A stretch of 64,000 nt of DNA from Lepraria neglecta (Eukaryota > Ascomycota > Lecanoromycetes > Lecanorales > Stereocaulaceae): positions 1,550,001-1,614,000 of the forward strand of contig CM065652.1 of the NCBI GenBank assembly GCA_033220425.1. Direction: 5' to 3'. The notes beneath the pieces are model-generated. The model had not been told where the DNA came from, made no database searches, and saw nothing but the letters and a program-made list of their open reading frames with translations. This document shows, piece after piece, positions 5,717 to 64,000 of this stretch. Made by a program: the position numbers and the translations under genes. Every line of letters starts with the position of its first letter. Positions within the stretch are counted from its first letter, which is position 1.

Positions 5717-7429
5717 TCAAGCTTTCGTAGTACCTTCCCTCCTTCGTACCCTGATCGTTGCCTTCATAGGCGGCAAATTGTTCTGACCAAACCACTTATT
5801 AGGCGGGCGCGTAGCGAGAGGCTCAATCTCGTAGTTCATGACCATGTAAGCCAATAGCATCTTCAATTCCAGCGAAACGAAGAACCGGCCCGGACAAGCA
5901 TGGCGTCCATGGCCAAAGGGGAAAAAGGTATCCGACGTAGTGATGAGCCCTGTATTCTTGAGCTTGAGCATTTCGGCGCCATCCTTGACATCACCGTTGA
6001 CTGTATGATCACCCTCCTCTTTAGGTCTTGAAAATCGAAAGGCATCGTAGGTCTCTGGGTCTGGGTAGATCTCAGGATCATGCTGAACATTGTGCACGTC
6101 CAAGCCGACAAAAGTGCCCTTAGGGGCTCTCCAACCTTCCGCTTTGTTTTCGATACCTTCGTCGGGCATCACTTTCCGCATAATACCTCTCGTCATGAAA
6201 TTGCTGACCCTCATACTCTCACGAATAGCTGAGTCTGTGCGGTGGAACCGGGCCAACCCAGCTTTAGTCCATTGTCCACCGTCTTCAACCAGTATCCTTG
6301 TTGCCTCCTCTCGTATTCCTTCGAGATATCCTAGGGACGGGTCGCAGGAGATGATATCGAAGAGACAATTGGTAATGGTCAAGGTAGTTGTATGGATTGC
6401 GGCAAAGTTGAGGGGCATGAGTCGTCGGGAGATCATGTCAGGTGTCAGCTCGTCCTGGCGGTTTTCTGAGCTAGCAAGGGCAATTTGCCAGCTTATGTAG
6501 TCGTTAGGCTCCTCCCATTCAAAATTTGGGTCTTCTTGCCTCCTTTTGAAGTTGGCTAATCGTTCTTTGATGAGCGGCAACGTATACTTGGCTGTTTTGC
6601 TGTAGTGGTAGTGATTTGGAATTGTGACTATCCGCCCAACAATCGGTTTGAGGAATTGGGGAGTGAACCGAAGGAAGACCGTAGAGGCTGCGATGACATC
6701 CATTGCGAATTTGGCCATATTAGTTAGGTAGTCCTGATTGCGGCATAATGGCAATCCAACGAGCATACGATTCACAGCCCGCGGAATCATGACCATCAAA
6801 TTGTCGAAGACACCAATATCCCTCCATTTCTCAGTATCCACGCCCCAAGTCTCATCAAAAGAATCCGCTACTTCTTCGAACATGCCAGGAACCATTTGAC
6901 CCACCCGCCTCGGCAAGTACTTATGAATGACATGCTCGTGGTAAGGGTCTCCGAGGAGGTGAGGGTGTGTGAACGCGTAGTCACCTTCAAGTGCATCGTA
7001 GTGACATTCTGACGTGCTGAGGATATTGTCGGGTTGGTCGAGAAGCCATTGCACCTGAGATCTAGGGATGATGACTTCAGGCTTGCCAGAGAAATCGGGG
7101 AAGATGTAGGTTTTGCCTTTCTTGGAGTACTATTGACATGGTCAGCTCTGCGTGTAGGACCAAACATGCTACTCGTTGAGTGCAAGTGGGCACACTGGTG
7201 CTGAGCATACCTTCTCGTACCCTTCCCCTAGCCATTCTCGTACATTATTGAAGCTTGCGAATGTTGCTCTGGTCTCTGCGAATATCTTGCTGGAATCCTT
7301 CCCAATCCAAGGTACTCCTGCAGGCATAGCCGTGGTGGCCATCAAACGACTGTAGATGGAGTATATGACGAGGAGGGCGACAGTTATGGCGACTGTGGGG
7401 TTCGAAAGGGGTTCGAGTAGAGCGTCCAT
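5717..7429 (-). CDS. cytochrome P450 monooxygenase
   Basis: Two exons (7429-7211 and 7129-5717) with an 81-bp phase-0 intron (7130-7210) give 543 residues, normal for a membrane-bound fungal class II P450. An N-terminal hydrophobic helix is followed by a Pro-containing hinge. The I-helix segment reads AAIHTTT (as in the ent-kaurene-oxidase-like fungal P450s), the K-helix ExxR is ESMR near residue 378, and the heme loop FGHGRHACPG lies near residue 485 with its Cys ligand intact. It should hydroxylate or oxidise a hydrophobic substrate at the ER with a P450 reductase; the substrate cannot be read from sequence. The start at 7429 is the first ATG in frame before the anchor. It shares strand with the DUF2235 and ADH genes downstream. 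Confidence 0.93.
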
Positions 7430-9932: not shown

Positions 9933-12029
9933 CTAGCTCCCAGGCTGGAAAGGGTCGCTCGGCTTCTTTGGCTCCTCCTGCACGGGAGTCCCCCAGGTCA
10001 CACTCTCCCCAATCCATTTCGTAGCCCTATTATCCTCATCCAACTTCATCAAATACTCACTCGCAGCCTGCTTCCCAATGATGACATTCTTCCGCTGACG
10101 AAATTGCTCCTCGCTCTCAAACGCTTGCTTAGTCTGGTCATCATTCCAGAGATTCCGTAGAATCAGGAGCCTTTCGAGTGGTGAAGCGGAGTATCTTTCA
10201 TGGGAATACGATCCCTGCTGGATGACCATTTTCGGGATGACGAATTCCTTGATGGTAACGGTGATCGACTCTTGTTCCTTCTTCACAGTGCGCTTATTGA
10301 AGATAGAAGGCATCCAGTCGCCCCAGGCCGGTACATCTTTCGGAGTAAAAGTCTTGACCCATGAATGGCCTTCTCCATCTCCATTTGGCTTCCTAGTAAA
10401 CCCTTCAAGGGCCCTACTTCGATACTCCTGGCTCTGCCACGCATGCCAGACCACCGGATGGATGTATTCGCGAGTGTCGGGCTTGTCAGGATAATGACCC
10501 GGCGTCCGGACTTCCTGGCCAATGATAGCATTGGGGATACCGGAGAAGTCTTTCTGGTAAGGGCCCACCCCCCAGCCAACCTTTTGTGTCTCGGTAGATC
10601 TCTTGGTGAGCTTTTCGAGAACCTCAAAGTACTGCGTAGTAATAAAGCTGAGCACTCTCTCCTCGTAATGGAGGTAAGGACGGCAGCGATCAACCATCCA
10701 GGCGAAAGTGGTGTTGGCCATGGATTCAAGGTCGCCCTTGGGGGTACTCTTTAGGCTATCTGTGCTTCCCCCGCCGACGTTAATGTGAACGCCAGGGAAC
10801 CAGCACTGGATCAAGTTGGTCTCGCCCGTCCTGCCCATCTGTTCCCGTATTTTTCTGTTGTCGCTAGGCATGTTCCAGAGAGTTGGCTTCATATGGTTAC
10901 GGCGCTCGTCGAGTGCCAATGCATGAAAGGCGTTATCGAATTCTGGGGTCCGTTAGCGTCATGGAAATTTGTAGAACTCATTAGTGAGTAAGATCAGGGG
11001 GACATCAACCTGGATGAATGTTCGTGTTATGGAAGGCATATTCCTTGTTATACCCCGTCACGTCTACGAGCCTGTTTGCTGGAATGCCTAGAGATCCCAC
11101 GGTATCGAAAACACCGACGATCTTGATGTCAACAGGCCTATGGCAGTAAAACAGCCACTCGTGGCCGTCACCTTTGCGAACCTTCTGAGCTGCATGGTCC
11201 TTGTCGCCTTCGCTAATGGTCACCATGTCATCATCCGTCAAATCTTTCTCAGCTTTGTCTCTGATTTCAAGATTCAGCTTCCCCCAGGCTGTTTCCTCGA
11301 TCGGCGTCTCCGCATTCTTGGTCTTGTAGACAGAATACATTTCCCAGAATCGTGACATCTGTATATCCTGGCAGATTCCAACTCGAGCGACAAGACCAGC
11401 CGTCGCACTGAATAATTTCGGAGTTAGCATTTCCCTTGTGAGATGATCCTTGAGCCGAAGGATATGTCTCGTGAGCCGGAGAATAGTTCCGGCTCAAAAC
11501 AGGGCATGAAAGGGAACTAATAGCTCAAAAAGGATAACGTACCGAGCAGTGTATGCCCCACGGGAAAAGCCGAAGAAGAAGACCTCATCACCTGGGACAT
11601 AGTTGCTGGCCAGGAAATTGTAGGCTTCGCATATGTTTTCGTCAAGGCCAGATCCAAACCAGCCTAAGCACTGATGTCAGAACACAGTCATGCATAAATC
11701 AACCAAAATAAGCAATTGTTATTGAAGAACCTGGAGCCAATTGGTTCGCAGTATGGTTGGGTGAGCTCACCAGCGATTTTTGCATCCAACCAATTGGACG
11801 TCGCAACGCCCGCGTCATAGAATACTATCTGTGGTACTGCCTGATTATTCTCATCAATGTAGGTCTTCGAGATAGCACGAGACAGCTTCGCAACGTTGGA
11901 AGGAATTTCATGGCTAGCATGATTGGCCGCTTGCCAGGTGCCGTCGCAGCAAATGATCAATCGCTTGCGGACGGGCTTTGGGCCCCATGCACCTCCGGGT
12001 GTGGGCTGAAATCCATGTTGCTGATCCAT
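9933..12029 (-). CDS. DUF2235 (Tle1-like alpha/beta hydrolase) protein
   Basis: Four exons (12029-11771, 11663-11543, 11407-11010, 10942-9933) give 595 residues. All joins keep frame, and the 135-bp intron 2 has a clear TGCTAAC branch site. The N-terminus carries the family hallmark KRLIICCDGTW. The nucleophile elbow GFSRGAYTAR (GxSxG) is created by exon 2 and intron 2. The middle includes VGVFDTVGSLG and a conserved ALDERR segment followed by WFPGVHINVGGG, where the DUF2235 His and Asp residues lie. The same fold occurs in bacterial type VI phospholipase effectors; fungal members are common but mostly uncharacterised, so a lipase or esterase role is inference. No signal peptide is seen. It lies head-to-tail behind the ADH gene and in front of the P450. 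Confidence 0.9.
11470..11495. repeat. perfect hairpin within intron 2 of the DUF2235 gene
   Basis: GAGCCGGA and TCCGGCTC are exact 8-nt complements separated by seven bases, and a further GGCTCA word lies nearby. This could fold in the pre-mRNA between the donor and the branch site. Any function is speculative. Confidence 0.4.
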
Positions 12030-61058: not shown

Positions 61059-61967
61059 CGCATAGGATATTCCAAAGATACTTTATAATTCAATGAAGAC
61101 ACAAGATCAATCAAGCAGAACTTTCTCAGGAAGGAGGATCGCACCCGACTTTAACCCCGGGGAGGATTGCCAAACGCAGCACCGCCCCCCATCATCTCAG
61201 CCGCCCTTTATCGAAGCTTACCCGATGTCGTAGTTCACATAATCATGTCAGGTGAAACAGAAAATCCTGTTGGCTTCGATACCCCACATCATACCTTAGG
61301 CGTCCTTTTGCACATGGCACGCCTTCTCCATCGACACTAGCATTGTTTCTATTGTGGTCGACAAGAAAACCTAAATATTTAAGACTCGGCAATTTATTGG
61401 TTGTGATAATCCCTGAGATTCGGAATATCAATGCTTTGCAGAGAAGGGTTTCAGTATCTTATTTAGAGTTCTTAGCCCTCAATCGTCCACTTACTCGGGT
61501 TGAAGTCAATGCCCTTGTGCAAAGCGAAAAGCACTGGTCCACCTTTACGTTTGAAACGGGACATTCCATGTCTATCCCGCTTTCTCGAGCGATCCACTTG
61601 ACCGGGATGAAGCCGGTGTCCTTGTGCAAAGCGAACTGCACTCGCCAAGAAGGCTGCCGATTTCTGTGATGTTGAGCTGCAAATTGTTAGGAAACCAATG
61701 CCTGCGCGTTGAAACAGAGACTAATAGTAGGCCTAGAACATGCGAATTAACTACACTGGGGCAGTAAGACTGCCCCTTCTTTGACAGTACGCTGCGAGTT
61801 GTCGAAGAAAATATGTTTTCGAACCAAAAAAGGCGACTTATGGCCGGCCTACGGCCAATATTATTGGGTAAAGTAAAATACGCTGGCCCACCAATATTGC
61901 CACGTTATTTACGCTTCAAAAAGGAGACTCGGCGCTCATACCCCTTGCCTGAATGAGCAATTCTCCA
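61059..61967. other. non-coding, 3' of the P450 relic
   Basis: No supported gene. A 108-codon plus-strand frame at 61343-61669 contains a direct repeat of CCTTGTGCAAAGCGAA (about 61513 and 61619) but no recognisable domain. Confidence 0.35.
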
Positions 61968-62087
61968 TCAGGGTTTGGAAATAGAAACTCGTGCGCTTTG
62001 GAGATTGGCCGGTCTCCCTTGATAGGGGGTCAATTTGAAGTCGTAGTTCATGATGAGCCGTACTAGAATTACCTTGATCTCAAGGCT

Positions 62088-62197
62088 TTAGCATATTCAA
62101 TATTTTTAAGAATGCTTGGCATTCCAATCCACCGCATCCCCCATACAAATTTATATGCAAAACGCGACAATCAGCCATATATCATCTTTGGAGCCAT
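62088..62197 (+). repeat. left inverted repeat of the 1.08-kb transposon
   Basis: Compared with the right end it carries an extra block of about 34 bp after TTAGCATATTC. The rest aligns closely (ATACAAATTTATATGCAAAACGCGACAATC and on). Confidence 0.8.
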
Positions 62198-63074
62198 TCT
62201 GCCGTCCCAATTGAGTAAATATGAATCCCTAGCTACTATTTATAGACTAACCCTTAGTATTGCAGGCTCGACACGCCCCCTACCGTCTCCCTCCTTATAC
62301 CCCACCGCCATGCCTACACATCTAATAGATACTACTTCCAAGTCTTATACAGATGGGCTTATACGCCACCATTAGAGACTCGTCGCGGTAGCAGCAAAGG
62401 TCCACTATCATACTAGTACCGCCTATAAGTGGGAGAGAAGGATCCAGATATATGGGACTATGGATCCACCAAATCCTCTGTGCCGTGGCTGTTATAGTTA
62501 TATACATACTGCTGTAAAGAATGCCCTTCTTGAGTACCAGCGCAAATACCCGTAGGTATACTGAGACGAGTTAGTAGCCTTCCTGGAAGAAGAATGGGGT
62601 CTTACCGTCTCTTAGCTAACTATCTCTAGGCTTCTTAGGAAAGAGAGAATAAGTAATAAGAAAGGACAACGCGTTGGATATACTCAGAGCCTTCGGCTTC
62701 GTAATAAGTAGCAGGCTTTTATCTGTAACGTAACCGCTGAGCAGCGTTGTCTTTATAGATGAGTCACTTCTTAAGCTGCAGACTGGATAGAGATATATAG
62801 CTTATAGACCAATTGGAGAAGCTACTCGGTGGAGTGATATAGGGGGCGCCTTGCGCCCTACCTTCTTCTTGCCTCCACTACTCCTACTGGTAGCAGTACT
62901 AGCAGCAGCACTGTTCTCCGGCTGGTCGTTAGCGAATCACACCGCCTTGGGGGTACGGTGGCTCTTCCGCGCAGGTTGCTCGGGGGCGGTGGGAGGGGTA
63001 GAAGGGGTGGGGGTGGAGGGCCTGGATCGAGAGGAGCGCTGAGAAGGTATTGCAACACCGTCGTATTCGTATGT

Positions 63075-63171
63075 ATGCGTTTTCTAGGCTTCAAAGATGA
63101 TATATGGATGATTATGTGGTTGATTGTCGCGTTTTGCATATAAATTTGTATGGGCGATGCGAATATGCTAA
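63075..63171 (-). repeat. right inverted repeat of the 1.08-kb transposon
   Basis: Inverse complement of the left end with an extra block of about 11 bp (ACCACATAATC). Its outer end abuts the YFAS codons of the P450 relic. Confidence 0.8.
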
Positions 63172-64000
63172 CTTGCAAAGTATCAACCAGGACACGCATA
63201 TTTCCCGTGCCCAAAATTGAGTAGATTCTTCTCTGTAGTGGCGAACTGGTGGAGATGACCTTCTCCCTGCCTCTGGCGGTACTTGCAATAGCGAAGGCCA
63301 TCAAATACTTCAGGTTCGGGTGTTATCTCCGGATCGTTCTGGATCATATTGACTGGCATGCAAATGTGGGAGCCCTTTGGCAACTCAGTTCCGTCACTAA
63401 GTACATGGTTTTCTTGCATGACTCTGTAATAAGACAGCATACTAGGGGGATTGAACCGCCAACTCTCCTTCATGAAGCTGTCCAACTTGCGCAGCCTGGC
63501 GTAAGACGTCTTTTGCCAGCCCCTGTCCTCGCGGGCGACTTCTCGGACCTCCTCTCGTATTTCTTCGAAATATTTCGGATGTGCGGCCAAGTCGTAGAGA
63601 ACATGAACGGCGTTCATCTATGATTTATATATGGCAGCAAGAGATATCACGATCTCCAAATGAGCCAGATGGTTAGGGTCCGATTCAGATTCATCTGCGC
63701 ATTCCATCGTCCAGGAAAGCAGTGTATCCTTGGTGCCTTTTTCAAGCTTCTCGGACGCCATCAGCTCCCTACGACGGAGGATCTCGGGGACCAGGAGCTT
63801 CTGCGTTTGCCGGATATAGCTGTGACCTTTCTAAGTCGATGGCAAGGTTTTAGAAAGCAATGGATGCACCCATGTGGGAAACAAGCGCATGAAACAGACG
63901 CTCACAAAGACTGCGTACAGTCAGCAAAGCTATTAACAAGGGCTTAGGGTCAAGTTCTCTTACCCTGCTAGGTGAATTGAGTAGATATCTCAAGCCACTT

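Follow-up and report, generated by a model that had tools for sequence, protein, structure and literature searches.

The window analysed here is a stretch of 64,000 nucleotides (C7:1550001-1614000) from a genome searched over 42.0 Mb in 11 contigs. On its minus strand a P450 gene is interrupted at 62088-63171, just behind the Cys loop. The gene and the insert have the following features, given in the reading direction of the P450:

63172..64000, minus strand: upstream P450 pseudogene part including the Cys loop, running past the window edge; from paralogue alignment
63831..63833, minus strand: TAG stop in the P450 frame, in a part to which the paralogue at window 5717-7129 is collinear
63618..63620, minus strand: in-frame TAG stop in the P450, collinear with paralogues
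63183..63185, minus strand: in-frame TGA stop as the codon following CPG, where the five paralogues shown with this loop have R
63172..63173: first copy of the target duplication (plus-strand CT)
62088..63171, minus strand: non-autonomous DNA transposon of 1084 bp, TTAGC...GCTAA; from genome matches and inverted ends
63107..63171, minus strand: terminal inverted repeat, one arm, short by about 35 bp
62367..62750, plus strand: remains of a transposase with 5 stops, 45% identical to residues 31-158 of the 351-aa frame in L033
62088..62181, plus strand: the other arm of the terminal inverted repeat (94 bp)
62086..62087: second copy of the target duplication (plus-strand CT)
61943..62085, minus strand: downstream P450 pseudogene part, from alignment; the reading frame shifts within about 62029-61995

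The interrupted P450 gene

The broken gene has both a PF00067 match (E 8.2e-21 for 63183-63617) and the heme-binding Cys loop FGHGKYACPG, and is thus a P450. On the minus strand, its 5' half reads GKYACPG-stop-YFA plus two bases, ending at 63172, and its 3' half starts at 62087 with SLEIKVILVRLIMNYDFKL; sequence and coordinates are as given in a preliminary description of this DNA. By paralogue alignment the gene was traced past the window edge to about 64336 (in L031). Another P450 frame (L031:7373-8263; PF00067 E 4.5e-43) lies outside the window on the opposite strand, about 2.7 kb past this traced end. Within the window, an intact 470-aa P450 frame carrying FGHGRHACPGRFFVSLELK (5717-7129, minus strand) served as a comparison, and a frame at 9933-10952 on the minus strand matches PF09994, the Tle1-like phospholipase catalytic domain (E 1.1e-19).

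The two halves were aligned to paralogues from the same genome separately, without being joined. Residues 1-91 of the paralogue L064 correspond to window 63446-63174 and residues 94-119 to window 62081-62004, and the paralogue blocks are consecutive across both halves, in order and on one strand. With the element excluded, 8 bases stand between the L064 blocks for two residues, which leaves two codons plus 2 duplicated bases. The loop was compared among eight loci, the window gene being one. Six residues separate CPG from E[IL]K in four of the seven others (L063, L064, L066, L068); L065 has CPG without the E[IL]K motif, and L067 and L069 do not match the CPG...E[IL]K pattern, the alignment of L067 showing CPG, six residues and MIK. 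The spacing in the four paralogues fits a 2-bp duplication and the junction FASLEIK, which the preliminary description had obtained by removing the insert. Its claim that a transposon sits within one P450 gene likewise holds, given that the halves are collinear with paralogues and that the element belongs to a family and is flanked by a short target duplication.

The gene carries further lesions. The frameshift in the downstream part was recognized because the alignment switches frame for the last ~29 residues. Another switch, located between 63974 and 63911, resembles an intron by eye (GT...CTGAC...AG) and was therefore left out of the lesion tally. RIP was rejected as the origin of the stops, since the indices of both P450 pieces measured show none (TpA/ApT 0.68 and 0.55; (CpA+TpG)/(ApC+GpT) 1.41 and 1.64). 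Those of the insert are borderline (1.19 and 1.06, respectively). Nothing about the lesions shows which came first. Present data thus do not place the insertion in time before or after the stops, and the earlier claim that this could be done is unsupported. The insertion is one of several causes that make the P450 a pseudogene, and taken alone the broken gene is ordinary.

The inserted element and its relatives

The inverted arms of the insert are 94% complementary over 49 nt (62133-62181 and 63113-63161). Used as a BLAST query against the genome, the insert gave 75 matches, a total that takes in the window and also lone arms and fragments. In an alignment of seven copies, L002-L004 (1.06-1.11 kb) share 98-99% identity with one another and 77-78% with the window copy, to which L008-L010 are 61-68% identical. 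Another copy, 6.2 kb long and near a contig end (L021:725-6919; C6:24224-30418), has an AT/AT duplication and is strongly RIP-like (GC 0.344, TpA/ApT 1.39, (CpA+TpG)/(ApC+GpT) 0.55).

A complete relative, made up of L033 and its overlapping continuation L074, spans 3566 bp and has two genes between inverted repeats of 132 bp that are 98% identical. Its transposase of about 340 aa matches PF13358 (DDE_3; E 1.4e-29), and DDE_3 and HTH_33 are the only Pfam matches of the element at E <= 0.01. The second D and the E are 34 residues apart (DD34E), with the catalytic D, D and E assigned by eye, and the closest informative PDB sequence match is SETMAR (E 0.0021). The second gene is convergent, with 686 open codons; its protein, 677 aa counted from the first M, matches no Pfam family at E values of 1 or below. 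We also found a diverged two-gene relative with DDE_3 (L022:1776-5756; C5:4432275-4436255), for which neither the right end nor the duplication could be established.

One side of the insert holds the transposase remnant, and the other resembles, by eye, the start of the second gene of the complete relative (YEYDGV). From this pair of similarities, the insert looks like an internal-deletion derivative that would have kept both gene starts. Part of the L022 second gene, used as a query, found 10 places in the genome, the window not among them. Set against the definition of a MITE (short, non-coding, autonomous-derived), the insert is non-autonomous and has an autonomous-type relative, but is 1084 bp long and retains a recognizable transposase fragment. 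No tRNA was found with bacterial settings, and Rfam gave no match at gathering score.

Target duplications in the insert's family and in a TA-using relative

We scored the duplication as the dinucleotide that flanks TTAGC...GCTAA at either end, reading ends only among the genome matches taken up as loci and entering once those copies that appear under several locus ids (e.g. L010/L014/L060, L008/L011/L056). The outer dinucleotides are equal in 11 of 12 two-ended copies: CT in the window, AA in L002, TT in L004 and L035, TA in L033, and AT in L008, L009, L010, L021, C6:4457514-4461274 and C6:4534590-4553796 (in all AT 6, TT 2, and AA, CT and TA once each). The exception is L003, with AT/TT. The C6:4534590-4553796 copy spans 19 kb and was taken as one element with nested material; without it, 10 of 11 agree. 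The six AT/AT copies and the TA/TA copy are palindromic and thus weaker proof of direct duplication, and the four others (CT, AA, TT, TT) are strict direct repeats. Redealing the right sides among the copies gave a mean of 4.3 agreements (p 6e-5 for the 11 observed).

Copies with one end only or with ends unfixed were left out of the count (L005, L006, L007, L012, L013, L015-L018, L020, L022, L026, L029, L030, L034, L041). A further subfamily (L027, L028, L038-L040) was also kept outside it; its five copies showed no matching pair at their BLAST-defined ends. A DNA-level search for empty sites, covering nine copies other than the window's with one joined-flank query, returned 18 matches, all of them the copies' own flanks.

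A family of related DDE_3 elements of about 4 kb in the same genome (L044-L051 and other places) served as a control. Its transposase is 34-36% identical to that of the insert's family over the matched part, and its ends start TATCGTAG. Eleven places are equal in score and identity, and four loci are 100% identical over a shared 2.5 kb. TA stands at all 38 of the exact 18-base ends found, and the two bases outside TA agree in none of the eight copies examined (of 11 listed), compared with 11/12 in the insert's family (Fisher test, p 7e-5). The control thus behaves as a user of TA and the insert's family does not; the control also looks recently active. Given both results, the branch of the IS630/Tc1/mariner group to which the insert belongs seems not to need TA for its 2-bp duplications.

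Origin of the insertion

Tc1/mariner transposases join the two strands 2 bp apart. We consider it probable that an internally deleted member of a two-gene IS630/Tc1/mariner-group family was cut-and-pasted into the P450 just behind the Cys-loop codons. The element ends and inverted repeats, the family copies, the internal transposase remnant, the 2-bp duplication and the collinearity of the P450 halves are the established parts of this account. The DD34E transposase of a full-length relative would have moved the insert in trans, joining the two strands 2 bp apart yet accepting A/T-rich dinucleotides besides TA, and the shortened inverted-repeat arm may have arisen in the window copy or earlier.

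The same ends could be read as those of an ordinary TA-duplicating Tc1/mariner element, with the element proper GC...GC lying in TTAA and the duplication being the TA inside TTA...TAA. TTA...TAA is indeed found at the ends of all nine copies tabulated, the L033 copy has TA flanks under either reading, and TA is the group's usual target (PMC7325037). We nevertheless regard this reading as improbable: it fails to explain the match of the following two bases, seen in 11 of 12 copies and in 0 of 8 of the control family, and, reasoning from the alignment, it would give the junction four residues, including a stop, against two in L064. The preliminary description had given the duplication as CT(T). 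Its 2-bp CT stands, but the third T is the element's own first base, and agreement in the other copies does not go past 2 bp, so the duplication is CT and not CTT. A 3-bp duplication, which matches in the window copy alone if that first T is counted, is very unlikely, the extra bases in the paralogue spacing being two.

Hardly any more credible is an origin of the P450 pieces in two separate genes, joined by rearrangement or assembly error. Both pieces align to the same paralogues, on one strand and in order, with two residues left for the junction, and what lies between them is a family-typical element flanked by a matching duplication.

Comparison with known elements

The insert's family resembles Tc1/mariner elements of the DD34E/Tc1 type in its DDE_3 transposase of about 340 aa, the 34-residue D-E spacing, the inverted repeats and the 2-bp length of the duplication. 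It differs in not being restricted to TA (TA/TA in 1 of 12 two-ended copies, otherwise AT, TT, AA or CT), and its complete relative differs in the second convergent gene and the 132-bp repeats. Placed by these traits, the insert's family would belong with Tc1/mariner on DDE_3, DD34E and inverted repeats and depart from it in the TA duplication. TA has been reported for fungal Tc1/mariner elements (PMC2836289, PMC3441728) and forms part of the definition in PMC4188875.

Within the wider group TA is the usual target, while most Sailor elements duplicate TATA and Fot types TAA or TAAA (PMC7325037, PMC8533490, PMC7386202). Sailor and the Fot-type pogo elements (PMC8533490, PMC7386202), of which pogo may carry either one or two frames, are similar to the insert's family in having duplications other than TA, but Sailor is DD82E, and the insert's family combines mixed A/T-rich 2-bp duplications with DD34E. 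The defining domains of pogo/Fot, DDE_1 with a CENP-B or pipsqueak-type HTH (PMC3441728), are absent from the complete relative at E <= 0.01. The TBE elements of Oxytricha likewise combine a Tc1/mariner-group transposase with accessory genes, and their target is not TA (PMC12242761, PMC7325037). TBE elements, which are found in ciliates, have three genes and a 3-bp target, ANT (PMC12242761), as against two genes and 2 bp here.

Among nine fungal MITE families with 2-bp duplications, one has CT (PMC4522978). This MITE of Mycosphaerella graminicola is, like the insert, fungal and non-autonomous with a 2-bp duplication other than TA; it differs in that the available text of PMC4522978 names no transposase for it. 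A literature search of titles and abstracts, with most subscription journals and Repbase outside its range, found no fungal DD34E family with non-TA 2-bp duplications.

Implications for target choice

Use of TA comes close to defining Tc1/mariner transposition. We see an even chance that a fungal two-gene branch of the group no longer requires TA, retains the 2-bp stagger and takes loosely A/T-rich dinucleotides as targets, in which case the second gene may join in target choice. The P450 insertion provides an independent, coding-sequence check on the length of the duplication. What is of interest is the relaxed target of a DD34E family, rather than the pseudogene. If true, a DD34E family with non-TA 2-bp duplications would exist beside a TA-using relative (34-36% identity) in one genome, and target choice could be mapped to transposase residues.
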